From NCBI GenBank assembly GCA_937923115.1, contig CAKZTE010000082.1:1-39491 (forward strand): a stretch of 39,491 nt of DNA, in the 5' to 3' direction. A model generated the notes under the pieces. It saw only the letters and a program-made list of their open reading frames with translations, did not search any database and was not told where the DNA came from. The translations under genes were made by a program, and so were the position numbers. This DNA is from an uncultured Caulobacterales bacterium. Its GTDB lineage: Bacteria > Pseudomonadota > Alphaproteobacteria > Caulobacterales > Maricaulaceae. This document shows positions 1,588 through 27,204 of the stretch, one piece after another (positions within the stretch are counted from its first letter, which is position 1; each line of letters starts with the position of its first letter).

Positions 1588-1591
1588 GGCG

Positions 1592-2908: not shown

Positions 2909-2914
2909 CGTTTT

Positions 2915-2941
2915 CCTCCCTTTCAGGAGGCTACCCCTCCT
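2915..2941 (-). promoter_or_regulatory. glgC leader with two mutually exclusive hairpins over the Shine-Dalgarno
   Basis: In the glgC mRNA sense, the leader reads GGAGG (2940-2936), a five-base spacer, CCTCC (2930-2926), a six-base spacer TGAAAG, then GGAGG (2919-2915), which is the glgC Shine-Dalgarno, six bases before the ATG. The central CCTCC can pair either with the downstream GGAGG, hiding the ribosome site, or with the upstream GGAGG (six pairs with the flanking A-T), freeing it. The pairing is visible in the sequence; a regulatory role is inference. Confidence 0.45.
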
Positions 2942-3036
2942 CTACTGTGATAAAGCACGGCAAAACTCCAATTGTAAAGCCAAACACTTGCTTATGACTA
3001 GACGCGGGATTGAGTGCGGACTATGAGGCACGCAAT

Positions 3037-3050
3037 AGACAGCGCTGTCA
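3037..3050. promoter_or_regulatory. LacI-type palindromic operator in the glgC-glgP intergenic region
   Basis: AGACAGCGCTGTCA contains a perfect 12-base palindrome GACAGCGCTGTC centred on CG. This matches the general LacI-family operator layout TGNNANCGNTNNCA in all but the first base. It lies 45 bases before the glgP start and about 130 bases before the glgC start, so it could control either or both. A near-identical site lies in the receptor/halogenase intergenic region at 15996-16009. No LacI-family gene lies in the window. Confidence 0.6.
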
Positions 3051-3095
3051 CGATTCCACTAAGAGCGTTTTAGAAAAGAAAATCAAGAGAATTCC

Positions 3096-5543
3096 ATGAA
3101 AGCCGTATCACATACACTTGCAGACACAAAAGGGCTCATCGAAGAGAGCTTTGGCGACTCAATTTTGCGCCACCTCATCTACTCCGTAGGAAAGGATGTT
3201 TCACATGCCGTCACGCGCGATTGGTGCGTTGCTGTATCACTCGCCGTGCGTGACCGCATGGTCGAAGGCTGGATCGACACCACACGCGAAATTTATAAGC
3301 GTAAGCAAAAGCGAGTTTATTACCTTTCAATGGAGTTTATGATTGGGCGTTTGCTTGAAGATAGCTTGACGAATTTGGGCCTTGCTGATGATGCGCGTGC
3401 ATTTTTTGAAGATAAAGGTCTGGACTATCACGACGTCCTTCACGCGGAACAAGATGCAGCCTTGGGCAATGGCGGCCTAGGCCGTCTTGCGGCGTGCTTC
3501 ATGGACTCTATGGCGACGGTTGGCGTTGCAGGTATGGGGTATGGCATTCGTTATCAGCACGGTATTTTTCGACAAAACATGGAAGATGGCTGGCAGATGG
3601 AAGAGCCAGAAGACTGGCTTGTTCAAGGCAATGCGTGGGAATTTCGCCGCCCCGAAGTCGTTTATAACATCGATTTCGGCGGCAGCGTCACGACGAATAA
3701 GGACGGCAACACAGTTTGGACACCGTCAGAGCAGCTTCAGGCAATTGCCTTTGACTTACCTATCGTCGGCTGGGAAGGCCGCCATGTAAACACGCTTCGG
3801 CTGTGGTCAGCACGCCAGGCCGAAAGTATGAACCTAAAGAAATTTAACGACGGTGATTTCATGGCCGCCGCGCGCCAACAGATTTTGGCCGAAACCGTCT
3901 CTAAGGTTCTCTACCCCGGCGATCATACCGAGCAAGGCCGCGAGCTGCGGCTCAAGCAGGAGGTGTTCTTTACTTCGGCCTCACTCCAAGACCTCATTCG
4001 ACGTTTCTTTACCAACTACGAAAGCCTTGATAATCTTGGCGACCATGTTGCTGTGCAGCTCAATGACACACACCCTGCAATTGCCGTGCCCGAGCTTATC
4101 CGCATCATGATGGATCACTACGACTATAGCTTTGAAAAAGCACTGGAGATTGCGCGCGAGACGCTACACTATACCAACCACACGCTCTTACCCGAGGCGC
4201 TGGAAAAATGGCCAAAAGGCCTTTTTGAGCGCATCCTTCCGCGTCACCTCCAGATTATTAATATGATTGACGGCGCGTTCTACCAAGAAGCGATAAAGAA
4301 GAACTTAGAGCACCACGTCATCGCAGGCATGCAGGTTATCCACCCACACCAACAAGACTGGGTGCGCATGGGCAACCTCGCTTTTATCGGCGCGCGCAAA
4401 GTCAACGGCGTGTCAGCGCTGCATTCTGAACTGATGAAAGAGACTGTCTTTCATGATCTCAACATCATGTATCCCGATAAAATTGTAAACCAAACCAATG
4501 GCGTCACGCCGCGCCGTTGGGTACTTGAATGTAATCATGGCCTCTCTAATTTGGTGAGCGAGAAAATCGGGACAGACTGGATTGCCGACCTCGAGCAACT
4601 AGAAAAAATCGCGTCGCTTGCAACTGATAAAACATTCCAAAAGAAATATATGGATGTGAAGCTGACAAATAAAAAACGCCTTGCCGATTACCTGCTCGAG
4701 CGCACTGGCATCACGGTGAGCCCTGCCGCGATGTTTGATATACAGATCAAACGTATTCACGAATACAAGCGTCAGCTGATGAACATTCTGGAGGCGATTG
4801 CGCTTTACAATGCGATTAAAGAAAACCCTAAAGGCGATTGGCAGCCGCGCGTAAAAATCTTTGCAGGAAAAGCGGCGCCAAGCTATTTCCTCGCTAAGCT
4901 TATTATTAAGCTGATTACAGATGTTCAAGAGGTTGTGAATAATGACCCGGAGATTGGCGATAAGCTCAAGGTGATTTTTCTGCCAAACTACAATGTTTCA
5001 GCCGCTGAAATTCTAATACCCGGCGCGGATTTGTCCGAACAAATTTCCACCGCTGGCTTTGAAGCGTCAGGCACAGGTAATATGAAATTTGCGCTGAACG
5101 GCGCGCTGACGATTGGTACTCTGGATGGGGCCAATGTCGAAATGGCGGCACATGTCGGTCATGAAAACTTTTTTATCTTTGGCATGGAAGCTCCCGAAGT
5201 TGCCGAAAGGCAACACCGCCGCGCAAGGCCGTCAGAAATTATTTCGAAGTCCCCTCGCCTTCAGAAAATTATCGAGCAACTTAGCGACGGAACATTTACT
5301 GGCGGCGATTTAGAGCGTTACAAAGATATTTTGGACAACTTAAATCATCATGATTACTTCCAAGTTATTCCAGACTTTGAAGCCTATTGGGATATGCAGC
5401 GTCATATTGATGGTGTTTACAAGGACACCTCGAAATGGGCTGAAATGGCAATCATGAACACGGCGAAGATGGGCTGGTTTAGCTCAGATCGTACTATTCG
5501 CGGCTATGCCAAAGATATTTGGGACGCTGACCTCGCATTCTGA
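3096..5543 (+). CDS. glgP: Glycogen/starch/alpha-glucan phosphorylase
   Basis: The 815-residue GT35 enzyme releases glucose-1-phosphate from non-reducing ends of glycogen or maltodextrin using phosphate and pyridoxal phosphate. Near residue 125 is GNGGLGRLAACFMDS, a family hallmark. Near the C-terminal third is EASGTGNMKFALNGA, whose lysine carries the PLP cofactor, followed by LTIGTLDGANVE. Length and full-span similarity fit the bacterial GlgP/MalP group; the sequence does not decide between glycogen and maltodextrin preference. It is first of a rightward pair with glgB, 12 bases away. The palindrome at 3037-3050 lies just upstream, consistent with control by sugar availability. Confidence 0.97.
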   Translation: MKAVSHTLADTKGLIEESFGDSILRHLIYSVGKDVSHAVTRDWCVAVSLAVRDRMVEGWIDTTREIYKRKQKRVYYLSMEFMIGRLLEDSLTNLGLADDARAFFEDKGLDYHDVLHAEQDAALGNGGLGRLAACFMDSMATVGVAGMGYGIRYQHGIFRQNMEDGWQMEEPEDWLVQGNAWEFRRPEVVYNIDFGGSVTTNKDGNTVWTPSEQLQAIAFDLPIVGWEGRHVNTLRLWSARQAESMNLKKFNDGDFMAAARQQILAETVSKVLYPGDHTEQGRELRLKQEVFFTSASLQDLIRRFFTNYESLDNLGDHVAVQLNDTHPAIAVPELIRIMMDHYDYSFEKALEIARETLHYTNHTLLPEALEKWPKGLFERILPRHLQIINMIDGAFYQEAIKKNLEHHVIAGMQVIHPHQQDWVRMGNLAFIGARKVNGVSALHSELMKETVFHDLNIMYPDKIVNQTNGVTPRRWVLECNHGLSNLVSEKIGTDWIADLEQLEKIASLATDKTFQKKYMDVKLTNKKRLADYLLERTGITVSPAAMFDIQIKRIHEYKRQLMNILEAIALYNAIKENPKGDWQPRVKIFAGKAAPSYFLAKLIIKLITDVQEVVNNDPEIGDKLKVIFLPNYNVSAAEILIPGADLSEQISTAGFEASGTGNMKFALNGALTIGTLDGANVEMAAHVGHENFFIFGMEAPEVAERQHRRARPSEIISKSPRLQKIIEQLSDGTFTGGDLERYKDILDNLNHHDYFQVIPDFEAYWDMQRHIDGVYKDTSKWAEMAIMNTAKMGWFSSDRTIRGYAKDIWDADLAF

Positions 5544-5555
5544 TAAAAGGCCTGC

Positions 5556-7751
5556 ATGATGACAGCTGCTTATTACGATATCGTCTCTGGACTAACCGCA
5601 GACCCGTTTGCAGTTCTAGGGCGGCATCAAGACGGCAAGTCCTTCACGCTGCGTAGCTTTGCGCCCGGCGCTGATCGTATTGAGTTGTTATCCCCGCGCG
5701 GGAAAACGGCAATTGCGGAGCTAACGAAAGTGCATGATGGCGGTTTGTTTGAAGCCCATATTGCGCCGTCCAAAATAAAATCAGGTTATCGCTACCGCGC
5801 GTGGTTTGGAGATCTCCCGCATATCTACCAAGACCCATATGATTTCGCGCCTTCCATTCCCGATATGGATTTATACCTGCTCTCAGAAGGCAAGCATGCC
5901 CACGCCTTTCGGTATCTGGGCGCGCATGTTATGGAGCAGAGCGGCGTAAAAGGCACGCGCTTTGCCGTTTGGGCCCCCAACGCCCGTAGTGTCTGTATCG
6001 CGGCGGACTTTAATTTATGGAGCGATATAAAACACCCTATGGCAACTCGCGGCGGAAGCGGCGTTTGGGAATTATTTGTGCCTGATGTCGGCGACGGAGC
6101 AGTCTATAAATATGTTATCCGCGACCAAGCAGGAAAGCTGCTGCCCTTCAAAGCTGACCCCTTTGGGTTTGGAGCGGAAATGCGGCCCAAATCAGCCTCT
6201 GTTGTTCGTGAGCTTTCTGTTTATCAATGGAGCGACCATGATTGGCTCGCGGCGCGCTGGAAACGGCATCAGCGCGATAAACCAATTTCAATCTATGAGG
6301 TTCATCTCGGGTCTTGGAAGCGCAAAGACGGCAATGGCTATCTGTCATATGCGGAATTATCCAAGCAGCTCATTCCCTACGTTAAAGGTCTTGGCTTTAC
6401 CCATATCGAAGTCATGCCCATCACGGAACATCCCTTTGATGGCAGCTGGGGCTATCAGCCGATTGGCATGTTTGCGCCCACGCGTCGCCACGGCACGCCG
6501 GCAGAGTTTAAAGCCTTTGTTGATGCTATCCACGCCGCAGGCCTTGGCATAATTCTGGATTGGGTGCCGGGACATTTCCCCTCGGATGAACATGGCCTCG
6601 CGCATTTTGACGGCACTCATCTCTATGAACATGCAGATGTGCGGAAAGGCTTTCACCCCGATTGGAATACGCTGATATTTAATTTCGGTCGGCGTGAGGT
6701 TGTAAATTACCTTGTAAGCAATGCCCGATTTTGGCTTGAAGAATATCACCTTGATGGCCTGCGCGTCGATGCGGTGGCGTCCATGCTTTACCTAGATTAC
6801 TCGCGTGAAGACGGCGAATGGATTCCCAATGCAGACGGTAGCAATGAAAATTGGGAGGCCGTAAAATTCTTACAAAGCTTCAATGCCGATGCTTATTCAG
6901 AACTAGACGGCGTGCCAGGCGGTATATTTACCATTGCCGAGGAGAGCACAGCCTGGCCAGGGGTGACCGCGCCAACAAATCACAACGGACTGGGTTTTGG
7001 CTATAAATGGAATATGGGCTGGATGAATGACACGCTATCCTACATGTCCGAAGACCCCATTAATCGCCGTCATCATCACCACATGATGACGTTCGGCATC
7101 GACTACGCCTTCTCTGAGAACTACATCCTACCGCTTTCCCATGACGAAGTTGTTCACGGCAAAGGCTCCCTTATTGACCGTATGCCAGGCGATCGCTGGC
7201 AGAAGCACGCTAATCTGCGCGCCTATTACGGCTTTATGTGGACCCATCCCGGCAAGAAGCTTTTGTTCATGGGCTGTGAATTTGCGCAAGTTCAAGAATG
7301 GGATGCCGACAGCAGCCTTGATTGGCATCTGACAGACTATCCAGAGCATGCCAATACGCAGCAGCTCATCACGGATTTAAACGCGCTATATAAAAAACAC
7401 CCTGCCCTTCACGAACAAGATTGCATTACACAAGGCTTTGAGTGGGTGGATGGCGGCGCGCAGAATGACAATATGCTTTCTTATTTGCGTTGGGACAAAG
7501 ATCGCCAGCAGCCTTGTCTTATTGTGTGTAACTTCTCCCCTTTGCCCCGTGACAATTTCCGCGTTGGCGTACCGATCGCGGGCTATTGGTCGGAGGCGTT
7601 AAACACAGATTCTAGCCATTATGGCGGTAGCGGCGTTGGCAACCTCGGCGGCTCTAAAAGTGAAAGACAGCACGCTAACGGTTTAGAAAACTCTCTGAGT
7701 TTGAGGCTTCCGCCCTTATCGACCTCAGTCTTTATCCTAAAGACACAGTAA
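5556..7751 (+). CDS. glgB: 1,4-alpha-glucan branching enzyme (GH13)
   Basis: GlgB creates alpha-1,6 branches in glycogen by cutting and transferring an alpha-1,4 chain. The 731-residue protein has the long form: an N-terminal beta-sandwich, a CBM48 module (RFAVWAPNARSVCIAADFN), the GH13 barrel and an all-beta C-terminal domain. Catalytic landmarks are DGLRVDAVASMLYLDYSR with the nucleophile Asp, FTIAEESTAWPG with the acid/base Glu, and LPLSHDEVVHGKGSL with the third carboxylate. The start has AAGG seven bases upstream. It is separated from glgP by only 12 bases, so the two are probably co-transcribed. Its 3' end converges with the nuclease gene of the repair operon, 19 bases away. Confidence 0.97.
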   Translation: MMTAAYYDIVSGLTADPFAVLGRHQDGKSFTLRSFAPGADRIELLSPRGKTAIAELTKVHDGGLFEAHIAPSKIKSGYRYRAWFGDLPHIYQDPYDFAPSIPDMDLYLLSEGKHAHAFRYLGAHVMEQSGVKGTRFAVWAPNARSVCIAADFNLWSDIKHPMATRGGSGVWELFVPDVGDGAVYKYVIRDQAGKLLPFKADPFGFGAEMRPKSASVVRELSVYQWSDHDWLAARWKRHQRDKPISIYEVHLGSWKRKDGNGYLSYAELSKQLIPYVKGLGFTHIEVMPITEHPFDGSWGYQPIGMFAPTRRHGTPAEFKAFVDAIHAAGLGIILDWVPGHFPSDEHGLAHFDGTHLYEHADVRKGFHPDWNTLIFNFGRREVVNYLVSNARFWLEEYHLDGLRVDAVASMLYLDYSREDGEWIPNADGSNENWEAVKFLQSFNADAYSELDGVPGGIFTIAEESTAWPGVTAPTNHNGLGFGYKWNMGWMNDTLSYMSEDPINRRHHHHMMTFGIDYAFSENYILPLSHDEVVHGKGSLIDRMPGDRWQKHANLRAYYGFMWTHPGKKLLFMGCEFAQVQEWDADSSLDWHLTDYPEHANTQQLITDLNALYKKHPALHEQDCITQGFEWVDGGAQNDNMLSYLRWDKDRQQPCLIVCNFSPLPRDNFRVGVPIAGYWSEALNTDSSHYGGSGVGNLGGSKSERQHANGLENSLSLRLPPLSTSVFILKTQ

Positions 7752-7770: not shown

Positions 7771-8481
7771 TTAAAGCTCCACAATTATGGCACTGTGATC
7801 TGACACTTTAGCCTTCCTAGGCGTGTGGTCGTATACGGCACTTTTTAAGCGTGCGTCCATCTTTGGACTCGCAAGAACTTGGTCATAGCGAAACCGGTTA
7901 TCCGTTCGGTTACTTGTCCATGTAAATTCCCGCGCCTCCGCATGGCGTGAGCGCCAGCTATCAATCCAACCCGCTTGCAGGAGGTCTTGATAATAATGAG
8001 TAGCGTAAAAGCTCTTGCTATCGCTATCAATCAGCGGGATGCCGCAGTTCATATCGCCAATAATCATAGCGTTAATCGCAAGCAGGCTTTCGCTATCGGT
8101 TTTAAGCGCTTGAAAAAGCGGCACTTGCGCTTTTTTTTGCGGGAAATGCACACATATGAGCGAGAACGCAAAGCCAAGGCTCTCAGCACTGAAATAAGCT
8201 TCAAGCATATGCAGCGGATCATGCGGGTCGGGCAGGAAAGGCCCTGCGTCAAAACCATATTTTGACGCGACTAAGATGGTATTTTCCTTGTCCCTCGTCT
8301 CGGGGATATGGATAAACTTAAGGCCCGCAGCTTTCAGCCCCGCTGTAATTTCCGCTTCGCCAGAACCGCGCCGAAACTCCTGGAGCGTGACGATATCAGG
8401 GGCATGGCCCGTAATGGTTTGGACGATGCCCTCCGCGCGCCGCCCGCCCCCTTGCAGAATGTTCCACGAGAGCAGCTTCAC
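7771..8481 (-). CDS. Endonuclease/exonuclease/phosphatase (EEP) family protein
   Basis: This 236-residue protein belongs to the DNase I/exonuclease III/Mg-dependent phosphatase superfamily. Motifs in order are KLLSWNILQGGG with the metal-linked Asn, DIVTLQEFRRG with the metal-binding Glu, a GDMNCGIP segment with catalytic Asp and Asn, and a C-terminal SDHSAIIVEL with the catalytic Asp-His pair. The start is GTG at 8481, overlapping the ligase stop as GTGA; longer in-frame starts would run deep into the ligase gene. It is the last gene of the five-gene repair-like operon. The fold does not reveal whether it is an AP endonuclease, a 3'-end cleaner or a phosphodiesterase; a DNA-end-processing role is inferred from the neighbouring ligase and primase-like genes. 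Confidence 0.85.
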   Translation of the reverse strand: MKLLSWNILQGGGRRAEGIVQTITGHAPDIVTLQEFRRGSGEAEITAGLKAAGLKFIHIPETRDKENTILVASKYGFDAGPFLPDPHDPLHMLEAYFSAESLGFAFSLICVHFPQKKAQVPLFQALKTDSESLLAINAMIIGDMNCGIPLIDSDSKSFYATHYYQDLLQAGWIDSWRSRHAEAREFTWTSNRTDNRFRYDQVLASPKMDARLKSAVYDHTPRKAKVSDHSAIIVEL

Positions 8482-9968
8482 TCGGGCTGCACTTTCCAGC
8501 CGCCAACGAAGTATTTTTTCTCCCACTCTTCGAAATAACCCAGAAGCTGCGCTTCGGAGCTACTGACGCGCATATCATATTGTAGCGGGTCTTTGCGGTT
8601 AGGCGAGAAATCCGTGAGCTGAATAACATAGGCGGGGAAGTCCTTGGAGGCTTCGCTTTTATTGGTTTTCCACAACACGATTTTGCGTACCATAACTGCG
8701 CCGCGCAAGGTCTTTAGGGCCACTGCTCGCTTAATGATTTTACTCTCGGGCAGGATAATTTCCTCAGCCACACGGTCAACATCTGGAATGTCGACAATAT
8801 CTGTGAGCTGCGCGAGGCGCGCGTCATCTTTATTGGCAGTTTTATCATCACGAAACCGAATAAATTGCGGTGAAATAATCGAACATAGCGGAAGGCGGCG
8901 CAGCCCCTCCCAGCGCTTATCCTCTGCGTTCCATTCCAACACCATTTTATCAATTGGATTACCGCGCGAGGTCATGGCCACAAGGTCCAGACATTCAATT
9001 TCAATGACCAATCCCGGCTCTATCATTTGATAGGCCACGCGCGAGGAGTTGACTTCATGAAACTCAGAGTCGGCCACGAGCGGTGTGAGTTTTTTTAATA
9101 TTGAAACCCGCTGTTCATCACTAAATCCGCCCCCGACGCGGCTGACAATTTGGTATGTACCGTCTTTGCGCACAATCGCCAGCAGCATATCATGCAGCAT
9201 TCCGGCGCGTTCATCCGTACTCTCGGTAAAGCCAATGACCGCCAAATCTAGCGTGTGGCGCGGCTTGACTTTAAACACGCCCGCTGTCTCGGAGCGCGCA
9301 ACCACGCCCTCATGTCCTTCGCCCGTGACCCATTCATCATATTGCTTTAGTACCGCTTTGGCGTTCTCGCCGATCACCGTTTTGACGGGGTGCACACGCG
9401 CGCCGCCGCCAAAAACCTCAGTCAGCTTGGCAATGGAAGCCGTGTAATCCATCGACAGATCAGCCCCATCCCAATCCCATATATTAAAGGCGGCAAAGGC
9501 GAGTTGGTCGAGCTGCTCTTGGTTTTCAGGCTTTCGGCCGATGCGGACAATATCATGCACGCGCGTGGCTTTGCCGTCCTTCACGCGAAGCTCTGGATCG
9601 CGCTGCACATAAAACTCTCCGCCAATTAGCGCTTTTTTTACGCCCGATTTCTTAAGTAAGTCCGCCGCCTCAGCCATAAAGGGCGCGCCCGCCCGCAGGG
9701 TTTTACCGGGGTTGAGCAGACAAACTTCGCCGTACTGGTAAATCATCATTGAAAATTCGCCGTCGATTTTCTGACTGATTTGATAGCGGCTATCGGGGAT
9801 ACGCCGCTTGGCCGCCACCGTATCCAGCGCCATCGTCATCTGGCCAAGCTGGCGGCGGCGCGTACGCACAATACGCAAATAGCCCTCTGCATTTAGATCA
9901 TCCACCGTCCCAATGCGGTAGCCGCCAAACAAGGCGCGCATCGTCTCTTCGTTATAAAGCTTAGGCAT
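8478..9968 (-). CDS. ATP-dependent DNA ligase with C-terminal extension
   Basis: The 496-residue product has the nucleotidyltransferase motifs of ATP-dependent ligases: motif I KIDGEF with adenylated lysine K67, motif III GGEFYV (E118), IIIa AFAAFNIWDWDG, motif IV EGVVAR (E220) and motif V FKVKP (K233, K235). An OB-fold domain ends in the motif VI segment ISPQFIRFRDDK at about 365-376. About 120 further residues follow that I cannot assign. There is no primase or phosphoesterase domain attached, so this is not a fused LigD. It overlaps the upstream 236-residue ORF by 8 bases and the nuclease gene by 4, indicating tight translational coupling. Strand sealing of DNA is likely, but an RNA-containing substrate cannot be excluded. 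Confidence 0.88.
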   Translation of the reverse strand: MPKLYNEETMRALFGGYRIGTVDDLNAEGYLRIVRTRRRQLGQMTMALDTVAAKRRIPDSRYQISQKIDGEFSMMIYQYGEVCLLNPGKTLRAGAPFMAEAADLLKKSGVKKALIGGEFYVQRDPELRVKDGKATRVHDIVRIGRKPENQEQLDQLAFAAFNIWDWDGADLSMDYTASIAKLTEVFGGGARVHPVKTVIGENAKAVLKQYDEWVTGEGHEGVVARSETAGVFKVKPRHTLDLAVIGFTESTDERAGMLHDMLLAIVRKDGTYQIVSRVGGGFSDEQRVSILKKLTPLVADSEFHEVNSSRVAYQMIEPGLVIEIECLDLVAMTSRGNPIDKMVLEWNAEDKRWEGLRRLPLCSIISPQFIRFRDDKTANKDDARLAQLTDIVDIPDVDRVAEEIILPESKIIKRAVALKTLRGAVMVRKIVLWKTNKSEASKDFPAYVIQLTDFSPNRKDPLQYDMRVSSSEAQLLGYFEEWEKKYFVGGWKVQPE

Positions 9969-10671
9969 CCGCCCCCCCCAAGGCTTTGAGCTCTAGGTTC
10001 GATAGATGAAGAAGCAGGATATATTTGTCATCCTTCACCCGCCCTTCTAAGAAGCCTCGGTAAGGAATAGAACGCGAGCGGAAAATAAGCGGGTCGCGGC
10101 CCTTGGGTCCTGCACCTAAAATCATTAGCGACTTTGCCTCATGCAGTTCCTTCGCCATTTCATAAAGAAAGTCATAGGTCAGCCCGTTGATGTGAACGAT
10201 TTGCAGTTTAGTCGCGAAGACAAATTTACGAATGGCTTCAGCCTTGGGAATCATTTTCCCCGTCCAGGTCAACGGAATTTCCGTGTCAATATTGGCTTCA
10301 AGGCGACGTTGTTCACGCTCCTCGCGCACGCTTCCGTCTGTATTATAAACAACTTCTTTTTGGCGAATGCGATAAACCAATTCCTCCTTGGGATTTATAT
10401 AAACCCGCGAAAGATCCCAAAGGAACATGCCGTCGCGTTCAAAATCAATCTCTGGATCGCCCGCCGCTAAGGCCGCGCCTAGGGCCTCGGGCGTCTCGAA
10501 ACGCTCCAGCATAGATTCGTAATCTTGATGCACAGCGCCTTTCAAAACTTTTCTCGTATAGGCGGGCAACTTATTAGGCCCTTGATAAAAAATCGTACGG
10601 CGTTGGCGCGTGGACTCGGCTTTGACCACGGCATCTCGCATTCGCGCATCGGAAAGATTTATATTCGGCAT
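9961..10671 (-). CDS. Uncharacterised 236-residue protein of the repair-like operon
   Basis: I do not recognise this family. The protein is soluble-looking, with no signal peptide or membrane segment. The N-terminal third is basic and polar (TRQRRTIFYQGPNK). The centre contains a GMFLWDLSRVYI segment followed by a charged stretch rich in Arg and Glu. The C-terminal part reads LMILGAGPKGRDPLIFRSRS and then IPYRGFLEGRV, an aromatic and Arg/Gly-rich region that could bind nucleic acid, though this is a guess. The start has a strong purine-rich site (AGGGGG) upstream. It sits between the Ku-like gene (12-base gap) and the ligase gene (8-base overlap), so it probably acts in the same pathway as those proteins. 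An accessory or end-recognition role is inference. Confidence 0.75.
   Translation of the reverse strand: MPNINLSDARMRDAVVKAESTRQRRTIFYQGPNKLPAYTRKVLKGAVHQDYESMLERFETPEALGAALAAGDPEIDFERDGMFLWDLSRVYINPKEELVYRIRQKEVVYNTDGSVREEREQRRLEANIDTEIPLTWTGKMIPKAEAIRKFVFATKLQIVHINGLTYDFLYEMAKELHEAKSLMILGAGPKGRDPLIFRSRSIPYRGFLEGRVKDDKYILLLHLSNLELKALGGADA
9969..9979 (-). promoter_or_regulatory. Homopolymeric G8 tract acting as the ligase ribosome binding region
   Basis: Eight consecutive C on the + strand (9972-9979) read as G8 in the mRNA. They encode the glycines near the end of the upstream protein and lie immediately before the ligase ATG, where they are the only plausible Shine-Dalgarno. Overlap of a coding end, a ribosome site and a slippage-prone tract is unusual; any phase-variable behaviour is speculation. 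Confidence 0.35.
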
Positions 10672-10683
10672 AGCCCCAGCCCC

Positions 10684-11313
10684 CTAAAGCATATCAAAGT
10701 CAAAGGCGTCGGTTTCGCCGCTATCGTCTTCGCCCAGTTCCTCGGCACGGGCCGCGCAAATTGCGGCTTGCTCAAAACCAACAAATTCGATATCGCTTTT
10801 TTGCCCAATCAACATCCAGAGTACATCGTCTTCGCCTTGCATTAAAAAGGCAGGGTCCGTGTAGATGCCGCCGCGATAGGAAAAGGGAAATTGGTAAATC
10901 GCCCCCGCCGCGAGCTTATCCAGCAAAGCTTGGCTTATCTCGGTTTGCGGGTCGAGCTGATAGGCAAGCCGTATGGGGTGATCCAAAAACGTATCGATAT
11001 CGACCTCTGTCTCCAAAATCGTCGGGGCAGAAAAACTGGAGGCCACTTCGGCAATTTCTTTGCCGTCGCGGTCAATCGGGACAAGCTCATCGCGCGTGAC
11101 CCAAAGGCCCTCGGTGTTGACATAACCACTGGCGGTGCCGCCGTAAGGGATAATGGTGCGTCCATCGCGCGCCAAGGTCGCCAGCGTGCACGCTTTGTCA
11201 TTGGCGTCAAAGGTTTCTGTCTGAACGCGGCCGTAAAGCTTAGACCGGTCCACTTTGGTTATCGCCAAAGTGAACGGCTCTCCGCCAAAATCAAAGTCTA
11301 ATTTACGTGCCAT
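10684..11313 (-). CDS. 209-residue protein with weak Ku-like features
   Basis: The assignment is tentative. By eye, residues 50-122 follow the order seen in bacterial Ku: a DGRTIIPYG segment, SGYV plus LWVTRDEL (Ku typically has KGY then VVLT.EEL), then VDIDTFLDHPIRLAYQLDP (Ku typically has a V..ID....D.PYYL.P stretch). Residues 142-170 contain an F..RGG segment and end DDVLWMLIG, where Ku has RG-containing strands of its barrel. The protein is shorter than typical Ku (about 260-300 residues) and ends in an acidic tail (EELGEDDSGE then DAFDFDML). The start is well supported by GGGGGA five bases upstream. It lies 55 bases after the primase-HAD gene and 12 before the next gene. If it is Ku-like, it would form the DNA-end-binding ring of this operon; otherwise it is an uncharacterised operon protein. 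Confidence 0.7.
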   Translation of the reverse strand: MARKLDFDFGGEPFTLAITKVDRSKLYGRVQTETFDANDKACTLATLARDGRTIIPYGGTASGYVNTEGLWVTRDELVPIDRDGKEIAEVASSFSAPTILETEVDIDTFLDHPIRLAYQLDPQTEISQALLDKLAAGAIYQFPFSYRGGIYTDPAFLMQGEDDVLWMLIGQKSDIEFVGFEQAAICAARAEELGEDDSGETDAFDFDML

Positions 11314-11368
11314 AAATCCCCCATCATTAGAGGTACTCTATCAGGCAAGGCCGCACGGAGAAAGACTG

Positions 11369-12586
11369 TCACTCACACAATTTTGCTGTGAGCACGGCTG
11401 CGGCGTCAAAGGCCTTAGGGCCGTCATATTCGGGGCGGCAGGCGACGCCTTTATCATCAACATAGGCATGAGCGGGCGGCTTGCCCACGCCGTCATGGAC
11501 GAGAGAATATTCTATGCGGTGGCGCGTGAGCCATGCTTCGATTTTGGCTTTCATCTCGGCGGCGGCTTTGCCCTCCAGCCCCGCCATGCGCGAGGTCAGG
11601 ACAATGATATCGGCATAGTTATTGATCTCTCTGGTGAACTCGACCGCGCCGTCAATGGGCGGACCAATGTCTGTGTTCTTGCCAGACTTGACCCGCAGCG
11701 CCAATACGCCGTCCAAATCAATACAGACTTTTGCGCGGCCCGTACGAGCAAATTTACGCTTTGTGGCCGCAAGGGAAATTTTGCTCATCCGTCCACGCGT
11801 GAGCAGCTCTTTGGTTTCATAATCGCCTGTATCAACGCGCGGCGGCGGCGGGCCGCCTCTGGCCTCTAGCATAACATCAATCGCGCTGTGCCCTGTTAGC
11901 CAAGGGTTATCGAGCCAGTCATCACCGCTCCAGAGCGAGCTGTAATGATAGCGCGTGTGATGTAGTCCCGGCAGGCGAAACCATGAGCCGAGTGAGTCAT
12001 CTTTTACCTTCTTCGGGAAGGTCTCTGGCTCTTCATCCAGATTTTGCGTTTCCCAAGTTTCGGCAATGCCTTTGACCATGGCGTAGATATCCACCGTCGG
12101 CGCGGGGTCTTTGAACAGGCACCAGATGTGATAGCCGCCTTGAGTATTGGTATCAAAGAGCATGGGGTCATAACCCTTGGCTTGTAACTCACGCCACCAC
12201 GCCAGCGCAGCATTGAGGTTACGCCGCTGATGATCTTCGGCGTGGAGTTTATGCTCATCATGCAGGTCAATATCAATACCGAACCAGCGCGAGGTGCTCT
12301 CTTTGGACTTGGCGTGGAGACCGATAATTTGCGGCTTGCGGTGATGGCGACTAGAAAAATGGCGGGTCAGCTTATCAATCGTCACCATATCCTCGCCGCG
12401 CATATCCTTCTTGGGCAGGGTCATGGCCTTATAGGATTTGCCTTCGCGGCGACGCTCTGCCGGGGTGAGAACAGAATACTGCCCCCAAACGTCTTTGCGG
12501 TTGACTAAAGTTTCCATAGCCCAATCGGCTAGTTCCGAGGCGCGTTCCGCCCATTCTTCGCCAATAATTTCATGTGCTGTGGCCAT
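11369..12586 (-). CDS. Archaeo-eukaryotic primase-like domain fused to HAD phosphatase domain
   Basis: This 405-residue protein appears to join two enzymes. Residues ~70-240 resemble an archaeo-eukaryotic primase (AEP) / PrimPol catalytic domain: motif I RWFGIDIDLHDE with D105 and D107, motif II QGGYHIW with H153, and a motif III region GSWFRLPGLHH. This is similar in layout to AEP domains of LigD and of TOTE-type conflict systems. Residues ~285-405 are a HAD-superfamily phosphatase: CIDLDGVLA with nucleophile D290 and D292, IIVLTSR with the motif II Thr/Ser, and AYVDDKG with D377 and D378. Polynucleotide 3'-phosphatases of the PNKP type are HAD enzymes, so the fusion could clean and then fill DNA ends. 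It is the first gene of the operon; its promoter must lie within ~125 bases upstream, where the receptor gene's terminator also lies. Confidence 0.82.
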   Translation of the reverse strand: MATAHEIIGEEWAERASELADWAMETLVNRKDVWGQYSVLTPAERRREGKSYKAMTLPKKDMRGEDMVTIDKLTRHFSSRHHRKPQIIGLHAKSKESTSRWFGIDIDLHDEHKLHAEDHQRRNLNAALAWWRELQAKGYDPMLFDTNTQGGYHIWCLFKDPAPTVDIYAMVKGIAETWETQNLDEEPETFPKKVKDDSLGSWFRLPGLHHTRYHYSSLWSGDDWLDNPWLTGHSAIDVMLEARGGPPPPRVDTGDYETKELLTRGRMSKISLAATKRKFARTGRAKVCIDLDGVLALRVKSGKNTDIGPPIDGAVEFTREINNYADIIVLTSRMAGLEGKAAAEMKAKIEAWLTRHRIEYSLVHDGVGKPPAHAYVDDKGVACRPEYDGPKAFDAAAVLTAKLCE

Positions 12587-12711: not shown

Positions 12712-15700
12712 TTAGAACTGGTAACGTGCGCCAACTTTGATACGGCGGTCACCGATAAAGCTTGTACGGCCAAAGCGCTGCCCAGAGGCGTCGATTTGTT
12801 GTTCCGCATTTGCACGCTCATTGGTGATGTTCGCGATTTGCGCACGAACTTGGAAGTTCTCGTTGAAGTCGTACTTGATTGACCCGTCAAGATAGCCCGT
12901 TGGCTGTTGATAAATTGGGTTGCCCGTTACGAAGTCACGGTATGAGCTCAGGTACTCAGAACGCCAGTTGTAGGCCAGACGCATTTCAAGACTGTCATCC
13001 TGGTAGATACCGATGACGTTAGCTGTGTGCTCAGATAGTCCGAGGAAATCCTCAACGCCATAACGATAGATACGTTGGAAATCAAAGCCCGGGTCACCTT
13101 CTGCCACATTTGGTTGAGGCGCTTGAGTTTTTGCGTCGATGTAAGTGTAGTTAGCCTGAAGACCAAGGTTTCCAAGTAGACCGGGAAGCTCATCATAGAA
13201 CTGCTGGTAAGCAACCTCTAGACCTTTAATTGTCGCCTCATCTTGGTTAAGGTCGCCATTAAAGATGACTGGAATTTCAACGCCGTCAAGCGTTTCAGTT
13301 CCAACAGTCTCAGACGCATAAATGATGTTATTACGAATATCTTTGTGGAATAGTGACAACGTTAGTGTGTTATTGTCGCCATAGTAATGCTCAAATGAGA
13401 GATCAAGGTTAGTTGATTCAATCGGTTTTAGGTTTGGATTACCACCAAAAAGATTAATCTGCTGCGGCCGAATATCTATAATACGGTCATCTGGATCAAG
13501 GTCAGGATTATCACTAGTGATGAATTGACGTCCCACCACGGCTGTTTGGTCTACACGAAGTTGAGCGATATTCGGACGCGTAATAGCTTCACTTGCAGCG
13601 AAACGTACGAGGAAATTATCCGTGACGTTTAGCTTTAGGTTAAGCGAAGGCAACCAACGATCATCCGATCCAATTTCACCATCAATAACTTCGTTTTCCT
13701 GCGCCGCGTAAGCGACGGCATCAGGAGTAAACTCCAGCGCCTGCAAATCGCTTGTTGTCGGGGCACCGCCATCTTGGAGTTGTTGCGAACGGATATCAGC
13801 ATAAACAAACTCACCGCGCGCGGAGACATCTGTTTTAGTGTAACGAACACCAATGTTGCCTTCTAAAGACATGCCATTGTTGAACTCATTACCGAAGTCT
13901 AGTCGACCATATAGATTTGTGGTCTGTTCTGAGATATCTCCGATACCCCCCCGGTTTTCATAGTCGACTACACCCTCAGGGTTGCGAAGAGGGCTCCAGT
14001 CAGGATTAAATCCGTCACTAGAAATTAGCGGCTCCCCCTGAATGAACCCAACAAAGGCATCATAATCTTGGATAAGTGCGCGATCTGGGAAGAGAACGCT
14101 CGTATTACTTCCTTGCACGACACCGCCGCGCTGGAAGTCAGCGAAATCAACAAGTTCGGCTGTCGGGCTATTTAAAGCCGCATAAGGAAGATAGCCGCCG
14201 GCCCAAGGCGCTGCAACCGCAGCCCAGTTAAGGCCTGCTGAACGGTTCACTTGATCACGATCAGCATAACGTGCGCCAAATTTGATTGAATCGAACCAAC
14301 CATCGTCTGCGAATTCATATTCCACATCACCACGAACAGCGTACATATCGCCTTCATTTTGTTGGAATTCGTCAGCTGCAAATAATAGATAAGCATTTGC
14401 AGGGTTAGTGATGTCACCTGTACCAGTTGTTCCGATAGGTCCACGGGTAAAACCAGGATTACTGCTCGGTGTCGGGATGAAGCTTACTTGTGGGTTATTC
14501 AAATCAGCATTGAGAGTAAAATCTGAGAAGAAACGTGAACCCGCCCAAAGACGGCTACGGTCAAACTCGGCTGAGGTCTTATGACCGTCTAGATTAACAA
14601 ACAAGCGATCACTCGGACGCCATTTGATGTTTAAGCTGATGTCATCAGTTTTTGAATTATCGATTTGATTGATACCCAAGTTAGTAAACGGAGCACCTGC
14701 TGCACCTGTCCAATCACGAAGGTTGTTTGAAACGATACCTTGGTCAAGAATTCCATCAACGGCTTGCGTTATTTCACAAGCGCCAGGGAAAATTTCGTTG
14801 CCGCCTTGACACTGCGGGAGACCCGCAGATGTGAAGGGAGACGTCGTGAAGTCGCCGTCCAGGAATGATGGCGTGATTTCGAACTGGTTCCAGCTTTCAC
14901 CGTCTGGGAAGAACTCAACAGTACGCTCGTTACCGTTTACTGTGTTCTCAATCAGTGAGTATTTACCTGTAAGCTGTAGGGAGCCATCATTGTTGCGCCA
15001 CTGGCCAGCGACGTAATAACTATCGCGTCCACGATCCACATCGTTTGTACGAAGCTGGAAGCCGCCTGGAAGGGCAATATTGCGGCCATCTGGAGTGCCA
15101 AAAGGTACGACTTGTCCAATTTGGAAACCATGAAGGTCAGATTTAAGCTCTGATGATGAGAATGAACCAAGAAGACCAAATTCACCAGCGTCCGTATCCC
15201 AACGATTACCCAAAAGAACACTGTAATCAGGGGCCCATTCGTCGCGGAGGTCAGTATATGTCCCGTCAACAGAAACAACTGCTGTTAGGCCGTCTTTATC
15301 AAATGGCTCTAGAGAGCGTAGATTAATCGTACCGCCGATACCACCTTCGATAAGATCAGCAGAGGTATTTTTGTAAACATCAACAGCGCCGATAAGCTCT
15401 GGGGGAACCGTTCCGAAGTCTAGCGAACGTCCGCCATTGGCTGAGAACGTATCACGGCCATTGTATTCAGAACGAACGAGCGTAAGGCCACGAATAAGGT
15501 TACCGCCGCCTTCTGGGGATGGAAAATCACCGCCATTGTTAGACGTTATGTCAAAACGCTGAACAACGACACCTGGCACACGAGCCAAGGCTTCAGCAAC
15601 CGACAGATCGGGAAGCGTGCCCACGTCAGACGCAGTAATTGAGTCGATTGCTGTGTCTGCGTCCCGCTTAAAGTCGCGTGCATCTTTCAATGACTGACGG

Positions 15701-15861
15701 ATGCCGGTTGTCACAACTTCGTCGACTTCTTCTTCAACTTGAGAATTGTCTTGAGCATATACTGTCTGAGACATCATGCCGAAGCTCGCAATAATTGCAG
15801 TTGTTCCGAGTAGCGTAAGCTTGTTTAGCCGGTCTAGGGCCGTGCTTGAAGTGGATTTCAC
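12712..15861 (-). CDS. TonB-dependent outer-membrane receptor, Xanthomonas-Caulobacter type
   Basis: The 1049-residue receptor imports a nutrient across the outer membrane using TonB energy. A signal peptide ends near VYA at residue 36. A TonB-box-like segment VDEVVTTGI follows at ~46-54. The plug domain contains SVAEALARVPGVVVQRF and an IEGGIGGTINLRSLEP segment. The remainder is a 22-strand-type barrel, ending in the aromatic terminal strand RIKVGARYQF. Size and plug sequence fit the large TIGR01782-like group used for carbohydrates in Caulobacter and Xanthomonas. The gene diverges from the halogenase array and has its own terminator. Its promoter overlaps the palindrome also found at the glycogen locus, so an alpha-glucan or maltodextrin ligand is plausible but not shown. 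Confidence 0.95.
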   Translation of the reverse strand: MKSTSSTALDRLNKLTLLGTTAIIASFGMMSQTVYAQDNSQVEEEVDEVVTTGIRQSLKDARDFKRDADTAIDSITASDVGTLPDLSVAEALARVPGVVVQRFDITSNNGGDFPSPEGGGNLIRGLTLVRSEYNGRDTFSANGGRSLDFGTVPPELIGAVDVYKNTSADLIEGGIGGTINLRSLEPFDKDGLTAVVSVDGTYTDLRDEWAPDYSVLLGNRWDTDAGEFGLLGSFSSSELKSDLHGFQIGQVVPFGTPDGRNIALPGGFQLRTNDVDRGRDSYYVAGQWRNNDGSLQLTGKYSLIENTVNGNERTVEFFPDGESWNQFEITPSFLDGDFTTSPFTSAGLPQCQGGNEIFPGACEITQAVDGILDQGIVSNNLRDWTGAAGAPFTNLGINQIDNSKTDDISLNIKWRPSDRLFVNLDGHKTSAEFDRSRLWAGSRFFSDFTLNADLNNPQVSFIPTPSSNPGFTRGPIGTTGTGDITNPANAYLLFAADEFQQNEGDMYAVRGDVEYEFADDGWFDSIKFGARYADRDQVNRSAGLNWAAVAAPWAGGYLPYAALNSPTAELVDFADFQRGGVVQGSNTSVLFPDRALIQDYDAFVGFIQGEPLISSDGFNPDWSPLRNPEGVVDYENRGGIGDISEQTTNLYGRLDFGNEFNNGMSLEGNIGVRYTKTDVSARGEFVYADIRSQQLQDGGAPTTSDLQALEFTPDAVAYAAQENEVIDGEIGSDDRWLPSLNLKLNVTDNFLVRFAASEAITRPNIAQLRVDQTAVVGRQFITSDNPDLDPDDRIIDIRPQQINLFGGNPNLKPIESTNLDLSFEHYYGDNNTLTLSLFHKDIRNNIIYASETVGTETLDGVEIPVIFNGDLNQDEATIKGLEVAYQQFYDELPGLLGNLGLQANYTYIDAKTQAPQPNVAEGDPGFDFQRIYRYGVEDFLGLSEHTANVIGIYQDDSLEMRLAYNWRSEYLSSYRDFVTGNPIYQQPTGYLDGSIKYDFNENFQVRAQIANITNERANAEQQIDASGQRFGRTSFIGDRRIKVGARYQF

Positions 15862-16010: not shown

Positions 16011-16185
16011 ACAAGATTAAAAGCCTGTCACCTCATTTTTAAATGCGAGACACGTTCGGCAACCAAAATATCCAAAACTTATTGACCTACGTATGCATGT
16101 TGTTAAGGCCGCGACCTTTTGAGCCTGCCACTAGCGCGCAGGCGGTTTTTAAGATAGCCAACGGCAATTCTTATCCGATGCAAAC

Positions 16186-16190
16186 AGGAG
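16186..16190 (+). promoter_or_regulatory. Ribosome binding site fixing the first halogenase start
   Basis: AGGAG five bases before ATG 16196 selects that codon over the upstream in-frame ATG at 16043. This start places the FAD-binding GGGTAG motif at residues 10-15, as in characterised tryptophan halogenases. Confidence 0.7.
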
Positions 16191-16195
16191 TATGT

Positions 16196-17734
16196 ATGAC
16201 TATAAAAAAAATATGTATTCTAGGAGGCGGCACAGCAGGATGGATGACGGCCGCTGGTTTATCCAACAAATACAAAAACTTAGATATAGAAATTGAACTA
16301 GTTGAATCAGATCAAATTGGCACTGTTGGCGTAGGTGAAGCGACATTGCCGCACATTAGATTCTTTAATAACGCGCTCGGCATTGATGAGCGTGAGTTCA
16401 TGCGCGAGACCTGTGCCACCTTTAAACTTGGGATAGAATTTTGTGATTGGGGACGCCTCGGTGACAGCTATATACACCCATTCGGCGACTACGGCGAACC
16501 CATAAACGGCGTCGACTTCCATCATTTTTGGCTGAGACTGTTGCAAAATGGTCACAAAAATCGCCTCGATGACTACTCCTACCCTATCCTAGCGGCCGAA
16601 GCGGGTAAGTTTCAACACCCAGGTCAGGACACCTCGGTTATCGGATCGAATTTTGGATATGCCTACCAATTTGACTCCAGCTTATATGCCAAGTTTCTTC
16701 GCAAATATTGTGAAAAGAACGGCGTCATTCGCACAGAAGGCAAAGCCATTGACACTATCATCGCGCCAGAGACGGGCTTCGTAAAATCTGTGACATTGGA
16801 AAATGGCGGAGACATAGAGGCTGATTTGTTTATTGACTGCTCAGGCTTCAGAGGCGTCCTCATAGAGCAAGCCTTAAAGACAGGATATGATGACTGGAGT
16901 GAATGGCTGCCCTGCAACCGCGCTGTCGCTGTTCCGTGCGAAGCCAGCGGCCCTGGCTTACCCTATACACGCGCAACGGCGCGAGAGGCAGGATGGCAAT
17001 GGCGCATTCCGCTTCAGCACAGGACTGGAAACGGCCATGTTTACTGGAATGAGTATATTTCCGATGATGAGGCGGCGCACCAGCTCACGAGCACACTCGA
17101 AGGCCCTATCCTTGCTGATGTAAAGCAGCTTTATTTTAAGACAGGAAAACGCCGCAAATTGTGGAACAAAAACGTGGTGGCTATTGGCTTGTCCGGGGGG
17201 TTTTTAGAGCCTTTGGAATCGACATCCATCCACCTCATACAAGAAGGGATTACGGCGCTCATAGAATTGTTTCCAGATGCCAGATGCGCAGTATCTGACG
17301 CGGATGAATATAACCGCCGCATGGATCTTAATTTCGACCGCGTGCGAGACTTTCTGCTTCTTCACTATACCGCAACACAGCGCGATGATAGCGAAATGTG
17401 GCGCTACTTTCGAAACATGACCTTGCCAGAAAGCTTAATAGAAAAACTCGAGGCTTGGAAGGCGCGTGGATATTTACCACGCTATGAGCAAGGCGTGTTC
17501 TTGCCGCCAAGCTGGGTTGCAGTCATGACAGGGCAGAACCTAATACCAAACGGTTTTGATGTGCGAGCAAACGCCATGCCTCTGGATGATGTCTTGGCCA
17601 GAACTGATCACATTAAGAGAGCCAGCCAAGACGCTGTAAAACAAAGCGCTTCTCATGATGACTACATTAAGACCTTCGGGGCTGCGACGTCAATTATGCC
17701 GCTGACGGCTCCAACAACACCGCAGTTTAGTTAA
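16196..17734 (+). CDS. Flavin-dependent tryptophan halogenase-like protein 1
   Basis: The 512-residue protein belongs to the PrnA/RebH flavin-dependent halogenase family, which uses FADH2, oxygen and halide to form a hypohalous acid channelled to an active-site lysine. It has the dinucleotide motif GGGTAG (10-15), VGVGEATLP, the lysine K77 in the TFKLGIEF segment (equivalent to PrnA K79), the halogenase motif WQWRIP (267-272), and E341 in the FLEPLEST segment (equivalent to PrnA E346). So all the catalytic landmarks are present. The substrate is unknown; relatives beside TonB receptors in Xanthomonas and Brevundimonas halogenate indoles in vitro, but their natural substrates are unclear. It is first of four tandem paralogues. 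No flavin reductase lies in the window, so reduced FAD must come from elsewhere. Confidence 0.92.
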   Translation: MTIKKICILGGGTAGWMTAAGLSNKYKNLDIEIELVESDQIGTVGVGEATLPHIRFFNNALGIDEREFMRETCATFKLGIEFCDWGRLGDSYIHPFGDYGEPINGVDFHHFWLRLLQNGHKNRLDDYSYPILAAEAGKFQHPGQDTSVIGSNFGYAYQFDSSLYAKFLRKYCEKNGVIRTEGKAIDTIIAPETGFVKSVTLENGGDIEADLFIDCSGFRGVLIEQALKTGYDDWSEWLPCNRAVAVPCEASGPGLPYTRATAREAGWQWRIPLQHRTGNGHVYWNEYISDDEAAHQLTSTLEGPILADVKQLYFKTGKRRKLWNKNVVAIGLSGGFLEPLESTSIHLIQEGITALIELFPDARCAVSDADEYNRRMDLNFDRVRDFLLLHYTATQRDDSEMWRYFRNMTLPESLIEKLEAWKARGYLPRYEQGVFLPPSWVAVMTGQNLIPNGFDVRANAMPLDDVLARTDHIKRASQDAVKQSASHDDYIKTFGAATSIMPLTAPTTPQFS

Positions 17735-17740
17735 CGCCGG

Positions 17741-20714: not shown

Positions 20715-20716
20715 AG

Positions 20717-27201: not shown

Positions 27202-27204
27202 GTT

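Follow-up and report, generated by a model that had tools for sequence, protein, structure and literature searches.

The canonical form of bacterial non-homologous end joining (NHEJ) relies on a Ku homodimer and LigD. In many organisms, the ligase (Lig), polymerase (Pol), and phosphoesterase (PE) are separate and co-expressed, for example in Methanocella paludicola, according to a passage of PMC4797286, and the mycobacterial LigC complex acts in base excision repair, as stated in part of PMC5663958. A survey of ~6,000 genomes, outlined in a section of PMC7719229, sought homologues of Ku and LigD domains of P. aeruginosa, and a 2025 study of how Ku evolved covers both the viral and the prokaryotic protein in a portion of PMC11936186, whose main text does not contain the word stem "Granulosicocc". 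Surveys of this kind search by the sequence of Ku and LigD; a system such as the one described here would be invisible to them, and the number of end-joining bacteria may be underestimated. The system is a five-gene cassette in a stretch of 39,491 nucleotides (the window) from an uncultured Caulobacterales bacterium of the Maricaulaceae (assembly GCA_937923115.1, contig CAKZTE010000082.1). It encodes an archaeo-eukaryotic primase-polymerase (AEP) fused to a HAD-type phosphatase (gene 1), a protein with a predicted Ku fold (gene 2), a strongly conserved protein (gene 3), an ATP-dependent DNA ligase (gene 4), and an EEP nuclease (gene 5). The cassette is probably a system for joining the ends of DNA double-strand breaks that does the work of Ku and LigD with other parts; DNA-end binding, the interactions and substrates of the proteins, and their joint pathway are predicted from genomics and predicted structure. 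No description of the cassette was found among the titles and abstract starts listed by searches of an open-licence library, which does not show its absence from print.

The grouping of the five genes is not confined to the window. Of the 28 loci checked, 17 have the full set of five, always in this order and orientation (gene 1 being cut by the contig end in loci L036 and L074). Another ten keep part of the order, most of them truncated where the contig stops, and the remaining locus is viral. The complete cassette occurs both in Hellea and its kin (Alphaproteobacteria) and in Granulosicoccaceae (Gammaproteobacteria), the proteins of the window being ~40–63% identical to those of the gammaproteobacterial copies. 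A ligase pattern scan of 84,980 species genomes, which reaches close relatives only, yielded nine loci, three from Hellea and six from Granulosicoccaceae. Of 48 genomes from the order to which one Granulosicoccaceae carrier belongs, an identical set of 18 has gene 3, gene 2, and a near full-length gene 1, and three further genomes match gene 1 weakly, by the HAD half only (E 6e-05 to 4e-04). This co-occurrence covers genes 1–3, genes 4 and 5 being seen via synteny, and the 18 carriers are not independent events because they share ancestry. Since the gene order is conserved elsewhere, chance co-occurrence in a single genome, which an earlier note on the window, made from the letters alone, had named as fatal to its idea of an end-repair operon, is untenable. 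The dN/dS ratios between the window and other Hellea loci are 0.028–0.105, rough values given a dS of 1.1–2.9 near saturation, and point to purifying selection; in the pair L012/L013, four of the five genes had a saturated dS, and only the fifth gave a value (0.017).

In the product of gene 1, the AEP domain spans approximately residues 1–250 and the HAD-type phosphatase approximately residues 270–405. The protein passes the cut-off of the Pfam family AEP-TOTE (PF22548) marginally, with 28.4 bits versus 27, which assigns the domain to the TOTE type by a narrow margin. In a profile search of the PDB, the AEP half matched 7nqf/7nqd (E 3e-05; named TPR_REGION proteins there), which we take to be CRISPR-associated primase-polymerases (CAPP). 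The HAD half alone has no Pfam match and stays far below the NCBIfam HAD cut-off (15.9 versus 44.6), as do the NCBIfam rows of all five proteins below their own cut-offs. In the PDB profile search it matches 1xpj (E 1e-05), named a "hypothetical protein" and presumably a HAD protein; D,D-heptose bisphosphate phosphatases in the PDB are matched weakly (E 0.34), and in PHROG the half matches phrog_1238 (named phosphoheptose isomerase, 3e-09) and phrog_415 (polynucleotide kinase, 1.9e-04). Invariant in ten sequences are D105, D107, and H153 of the AEP and D290, D292, T331, K369, D377, and D378 of the HAD half, where the complete HAD motif set (DxD, T/S, K, DD) is present; the third AEP motif has no confident placement. 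The catalytic meaning given here to the conserved residues of genes 1, 4, and 5 is our assumption, except for the first two AEP motifs. These two are described for LigD in a passage of PMC8656161. Judged by its motifs and matches, the HAD half appears to be a PNKP-like phosphatase, for which a 3′-phosphatase activity on DNA is predicted.

The gene 4 protein has the two domains of an ATP-dependent DNA ligase and the KxDG lysine. It passes the cut-off for the ligase OB domain (PF04679, 38.5 bits versus 27.5), and its adenylation domain (PF01068) scores 23.8 bits, 2.4 below the cut-off of 26.2. All 25 PDB matches at E ≤ 0.01 are DNA ligases, the best being 3rr5 and 2cfm (E ~1e-10), and K67, D69, G70, E118, E220, G221, K233, and K235 are invariant in eight sequences, including a phage-like relative. 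The protein also bears a conserved C-terminal extension (approximately residues 376–496) that has no Pfam match. The gene 5 protein passes the EEP cut-off (PF03372, 46.6 bits versus 24.5) and has as best PDB relatives the exodeoxyribonuclease III entries 6fk4 (E 2e-16) and 2jc4 (4e-16), followed by LINE-1 endonucleases (6e-12); N22, E50, D158, N160, D243, and H244 are invariant in nine sequences. With 44.3 versus 182.55, it lies below the NCBIfam exodeoxyribonuclease III equivalog cut-offs, so by sequence it is assigned to the EEP family, an exonuclease III identity not being proven. The fusion, the ligase, and the nuclease that the earlier note had read from the letters are thus borne out. 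The same is true of its remark that the activities are divided otherwise than in LigD: they reside on separate proteins, none of the five cassette proteins matches the LigD phosphoesterase domain (PF13298), and the ligase is far below the TIGR02779 cut-off (52.6 versus 227.75 bits).

The gene 2 protein passes no family cut-off in Pfam, NCBIfam, PADLOC, or PHROG (a single Pfam row, E 0.31, is at the level of chance), and a PDB profile search gave nothing convincing (top row a head-closure protein, E 0.018 and 0.0044). Its likeness to Ku comes from the predicted structure. An AlphaFold2 model built from nine sequences reached a predicted local distance difference test score (pLDDT) of 66.9 and a predicted template-modelling score (pTM) of 0.58, the best-modelled ten-residue blocks being 1–20 and 91–170 (pLDDT 81–96). 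Foldseek found 19 PDB matches at E < 0.001 with this model, and the best 50 of 681 rows, these 19 included, are all Ku or Ku-complex entries, with homodimers of bacterial Ku at the top (best E 4.5e-06). VIA-align superposed the model on M. tuberculosis Ku with Z 11.8 (2.5 Å over 105 residues) and on B. subtilis Ku also with Z 11.8 (3.0 Å over 103 residues); bacterial Ku rows score 10.8–11.8 and eukaryotic ones 8.8–10.6. Among the predicted viral proteins of BFVD, two matches reach probability 1.00, both phage Ku (E 2.9e-04 and 3.1e-03), and the third drops to 0.20. By these three structural comparisons, a Ku core β-barrel is predicted. A stretch at approximately 24–98 is present, modelled at low confidence, and by strand order it presumably sits where the Ku bridge lies. 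At the level of the predicted fold, the assignment of gene 2 as a divergent Ku-fold protein holds, with no ring claimed, and the protein is not counted among the Pfam Ku family. Its C-terminal tail is acidic and ends in a conserved DF.M motif: D205, F206, and M208 are invariant in 17 cellular sequences (mean column identity 62%) and also in a set of eight with the phage-like relative. Acidity had been considered as an argument against Ku and was dropped, the isoelectric points being 4.05–4.62 for 24 gene 2 sequences and 4.68–5.87 for the canonical Ku cores of ten relatives.

The gene 3 protein is even without a match at E ≤ 1 in Pfam, NCBIfam, PADLOC, or PHROG, and a PDB profile search gave nothing convincing (S100-A5, 0.081; ephrin receptor, 0.35); its mean column identity in 18 aligned sequences is 72%. 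The AlphaFold2 model is of low confidence (pLDDT 36.7) and was kept out of the fold search because a match at such a value would be meaningless. The order of strands and helices, taken from this model and from reading the sequence, resembles that of gene 2 after residue 85, and hhalign between the two proteins was non-significant (P 0.25 and 0.11). Two other relationships were tried and rejected: with Ku (hhalign P 0.13 and 0.16, not significant) and, in view of an H..YDF pattern, with the LigD phosphoesterase (P 0.34, not significant). In L011–L016, which form one Granulosicoccaceae clade, gene 3 is extended by a long lysine-rich linker, one example of which weakly matches a histone H1-like family, below the cut-off. 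A SAM domain (SAM_1/SAM_2) follows the linker in all three relatives of this clade that were scanned, and the combination is unusual for a bacterial repair gene.

Part of the cassette has also been found outside cellular genomes. Among viral contigs, the gene 2 alignment picked up one relative, 27% identical, on IMGVR_UViG_3300028031_000090, and directly behind it lie a gene 3 relative (32%) and a ligase relative (26%). These copies keep the C-terminal extension of the ligase and the tail motif of gene 2, and the phage-like gene 2 relative (P0006), too, has no Pfam Ku match. The contig also encodes an integrase, ParA, a tail-assembly family match, and a RepB primase. Neither gene 1 nor gene 5 was found by tblastn (E ≤ 1e-3) in 14.6 of its 34.9 kb. 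Scans with P0007 and A11 returned the same contig and no other, and those with A6 and A3 returned none. This single contig, a small basis, demonstrates that genes 2-3-4 can occur side by side with no processing enzymes next to them, and their adjacency suggests a three-gene core. In the record collections, gene 3 (P0003, P0007) has no phage or plasmid match and gene 4 (P0002) has no phage match; P0008 matched 77 plasmid records, of which 20 were listed, and those with an annotation among these 20 are LigD-type ligases. At positions 849–1149 of the phage-like locus (L075), short tandem peptide-coding repeats of the MAPSGIQYGTLRYPVWHPQ type, possibly iterons, adjoin an ORF of 320 aa.

If the cassette joins ends, its proteins might act in the following way. 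The Ku-fold protein, probably with gene 3, would hold the DNA ends, and its acidic DF.M tail would recruit a partner, perhaps by way of the C-terminal extension that the ligase carries. Blocked 3′ ends, bearing phosphates or abasic remnants, would then be cleaned by the EEP nuclease and the HAD phosphatase, after which the AEP domain would fill short gaps and the ligase would seal.

The carriers do not seem to lean on a known Ku. Canonical Ku (PF02735) was found in none of nine carrier genomes; it occurs in 11 of 61 relatives of the window's genome, none of them among the three carriers, and in one of the 48 genomes of the Granulosicoccaceae order, a non-carrier, hence in none of the 18 carriers (the three carrier sets overlap). 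The LigD phosphoesterase domain, for which the other carriers were not searched, is likewise present in 11 of 61 relatives and in none of the three carriers. A conserved gene order without canonical Ku or LigD, foreseen in the earlier note as support for a distinct system, is what was observed in the carriers searched. Support for replacement is weak, and a mutual exclusion with Ku and LigD was rejected as uninformative, since the zero overlap in 61 relatives compares with a chance expectation of ~0.5 (3 × 11 / 61).

Several observations weigh against the end-joining interpretation. The absence of Ku counts for little because Ku is uncommon (11/61; 1/48) and the genome of the window is 73% complete. 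The gene 2 model is weak within residues 24–73 and at 173–209, its Foldseek TM-scores with Ku are 0.36–0.44 by query length, all < 0.5, and the whole-chain root-mean-square deviations are 8–18 Å; low scores and large deviations are expected if the poorly modelled middle of the protein is misplaced, and they still count. The SPOC and Integrator barrels share the fold, with Z 9.0–9.4, below bacterial Ku and within the range of eukaryotic Ku. No sequence method used connects gene 2 with Ku: there is no Pfam Ku match at E ≤ 1, the hhalign probability is 0.3–0.5%, and alignment Z-scores show no excess over shuffles (hhalign and hmmsearch were run against 13 Ku sequences, three of them partial, and the shuffled alignments against ten). 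An identification of gene 2 as Ku by sequence was therefore rejected, hmmsearch giving no signal either; the Ku-like traits attributed to the 209-residue protein in the earlier note survive as a structural likeness (AlphaFold2, Foldseek, VIA-align, BFVD) and fail in sequence. Two loci depart from the pattern. In L071 (3,150 bases), genes 3 and 4 are adjacent, but a different ORF stands in place of gene 2 before gene 3, and gene 4 is not followed by gene 5; in L072 (G759:C169), the gene 2 frame is broken and the first half of gene 3 is without a match, which may indicate decay or misassembly of this copy. Finally, the EEP and AEP proteins could serve base excision repair.

This last point leads to the strongest alternative, a complex for single-strand-break or base excision repair resembling LigC/Prim-PolC, in which the EEP protein nicks abasic sites, the AEP fills, the HAD phosphatase cleans 3′ ends, the ligase seals, and the Ku-fold protein is a non-encircling scaffold. 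The EEP protein is indeed nearest to exonuclease III entries, the mycobacterial LigC complex offers a precedent, and bacterial Ku proteins can process abasic sites, according to a passage of PMC4245934. We nevertheless consider it unlikely, as a Ku-fold subunit and the phage-like genes 2–4 without a gene 1 or gene 5 match in the part of the contig covered point to ends rather than bases, and no gene resembling a glycosylase was noticed among those of the cassette.

It is somewhat less likely still that gene 2 is a SPOC-like or other β-barrel scaffold that only superficially resembles Ku, in which case the cassette would be a repair operon without an end-holding ring. The Z-scores of the SPOC and Integrator barrels, the low Ku TM-scores, and the lack of a sequence signal agree with such a scaffold; the uniform Ku identity of the 50 best Foldseek rows, the BFVD probability of 1.00 for two Ku proteins alone, and the low-confidence stretch at the presumed place of the Ku bridge do not. 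This possibility overlaps the other alternatives, and the likelihoods do not sum to one.

An anti-phage or conflict system, in which the TOTE-type AEP, the nuclease, and the ligase target nucleic acid that is damaged or comes from an invader, appears improbable. It would suit the AEP-TOTE match, the phage-like contig with genes 2–4, and a patchy distribution: of 61 relatives, three have gene 1 and three have gene 2; gene 3 occurs in 1 of 289 genomes sampled from the window's class and 1 of 398 from its phylum, both being the window's own genome; and gene 3 occurs in 3 of 369 genomes from the class of the Granulosicoccaceae carrier mentioned above, one of them that carrier. However, none of the five proteins has a match in PADLOC-DB at E ≤ 1 (whether this collection contains TOTE models was left unchecked), no helicase or toxin was seen in the cassette, the flanks of the scanned loci hold glycogen, TonB-receptor, cobS/cobT-type, and ABC-transporter genes, and the cassette seems to be under purifying selection. 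RNA repair, with the HAD phosphatase and the ligase mending cleaved RNA, is most improbable, for the resemblance of the HAD half to phrog_415, a phage family named polynucleotide kinase, is set against a DNA-ligase OB domain, PDB matches that are all DNA ligases, the absence of RNA-ligase families from the Pfam, NCBIfam, PADLOC, and PHROG matches, an EEP protein resembling DNA exonucleases, and the predicted Ku fold of gene 2.

The end-joining interpretation can be carried further, at the price of lower confidence. It is conceivable, if rather doubtful, that bacteria and phages share a second, LigD-independent end-joining machine with a three-protein core of the Ku-fold protein, gene 3 as the second subunit of a heteromeric end-holding ring, and the ligase, to which the AEP-HAD and EEP proteins were added later in cells, the gene 2 tail being a recruiting peptide. 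For gene 3 as a second Ku-like subunit, the case consists only of the similar order of strands and helices and the non-significant profile alignments (P 0.11, 0.25); the linker with a SAM domain recalls, by analogy, eukaryotic Ku70 with its linker and SAP domain. If true, the cassette would be an independent solution to end joining with a different end-cleaning chemistry, its three-gene core, present on the phage-like contig too, could be reconstituted in vitro, and it would offer a test of how Ku-fold proteins evolve beyond sequence recognition.

In the window, the five ORFs follow one another from gene 1 to gene 5 on the minus strand (Table 1), leftward and with short gaps or overlaps, exactly as first described. 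Genes 1 and 2 are separated by 55 bases and genes 2 and 3 by 12, and genes 3 and 4 overlap by 8. The most likely start of gene 5 is GTG 8481, in a GTGA overlap of 4 bases with the ligase stop, because several relatives start at or adjoining that residue.

Table 1. Genes of the cassette and their positions in the window.
Gene	Product	Position	Strand	Length
gene 1 (P0005)	AEP-HAD fusion	11369..12586	-	405 aa
gene 2 (P0004)	predicted Ku-fold protein with acidic C-terminal tail	10684..11313	-	209 aa
gene 3 (P0003)	strongly conserved protein	9961..10671	-	236 aa
gene 4 (P0002)	ATP-dependent DNA ligase	8478..9968	-	496 aa
gene 5 (P0001)	EEP nuclease	7771..8481 by likely GTG start; ORF as listed 7771-8526	-	

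The compactness seen in the window is not universal. DUF1800/DUF1501 genes in L008, an ACT-domain gene in L038, and a UPF0093 gene in L040 interrupt the cassette, L041 holds ~7 kb of unrelated DNA within it, and in L039 other ORFs fill the 3.6 kb left after gene 3. Unrelated genes thus stand inside several cassettes, so the order is kept and compactness is not; the compact operon of the earlier note describes the window and not all its relatives. The insertions in L039 (9519–11675) and L041 (9081–15648) carry further ORFs, which we take, tentatively, to be caspase-like. In L008, from Hellea, a tRNA-Arg gene (10379–10455) lies ~120 bases past the cassette and is a possible integration site. In one subclade, cobS-type genes adjoin the cassette in three scanned loci (L038, L040, L042), which suits a resident pathway there. 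A tree of 21 ligase rows unites the alphaproteobacterial copies in one clade (five rows, 100/100) near L071 (81/18, weak), which makes transfer between the classes, in either direction, likely. The G+C content of the window peaks at 0.53 in 8001–12000, other 2-kb steps having 0.47–0.52, which is in line with a foreign origin of the cassette. A search for LexA-type boxes 5′ of gene 1 gave one chance-like match among 18 upstream stretches.

Elsewhere in the window, positions 151–7751 hold a glycogen cluster with starch-synthase type, nucleotidyltransferase, and phosphorylase genes, in which 5556–7751 presumably encodes a branching enzyme. On the other side, four tryptophan-halogenase-family genes (PF04820) stand in a row at 16043–22234 (plus strand) and adjoin a TonB-dependent receptor gene at 12712–15861 (minus strand). 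Genes for an HPPD-type dioxygenase, a glyoxalase, a fumarylacetoacetate hydrolase, and a GST are consecutive at 25541–28868 (plus strand), a row that we assume to resemble tyrosine breakdown.

Taken together, the first reading of the window was largely right, and its interpretation finds support in genomics and predicted structure. With canonical bacterial NHEJ, the cassette shares a predicted Ku core fold, an AEP polymerase, an ATP-dependent DNA ligase, and 3′-end processing encoded together. It differs in that the Ku-fold protein escapes the sequence methods used, the activities reside on separate proteins, the AEP is TOTE/CAPP-like, HAD and EEP proteins stand in place of the LigD phosphoesterase, and an extra conserved protein (gene 3) and a ligase with a C-terminal extension are present. 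The mycobacterial LigC/Prim-PolC pair comes, to our knowledge, without a Ku-fold, HAD, or EEP gene. Going by its description in part of PMC5663958, it is similar in combining a stand-alone ATP ligase with an AEP partner. The split operon of the Methanocella paludicola type also unites separate polymerase, ligase, and end-processing genes; its parts are orthologous to the LigD components, with near identical specificities, as a passage of PMC4797286 states, whereas those of the cassette come from other families. The LigB/Lhr operon, compared by its description in part of PMC10140301, likewise places an ATP-dependent ligase with a phosphodiesterase and a nuclease-like protein, but it has the Lhr helicase and a metallo-β-lactamase-fold protein where the cassette has AEP-HAD, EEP, and Ku-fold proteins. 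The two phage Ku proteins matched in BFVD (from Mycobacterium phage Dylan and a COG1273 Ku-homolog of an uncultured Caudovirales phage) have the same predicted fold as gene 2, are 11% and 14% identical to it, and are annotated as Ku, whereas the phage-like copy of the cassette sits with genes 3–4. The CAPPs, the nearest solved relatives of the AEP half, have the D.D and GYH motifs in common with it in the alignment; they partner Cas1-Cas2, according to a section of PMC8211822, whereas the AEP of the cassette is fused to a HAD domain and adjoins a ligase. Our call is thus a probable NHEJ-type system that would work like Ku-LigD with every part different, and the cassette is not filed as LigD-type NHEJ.

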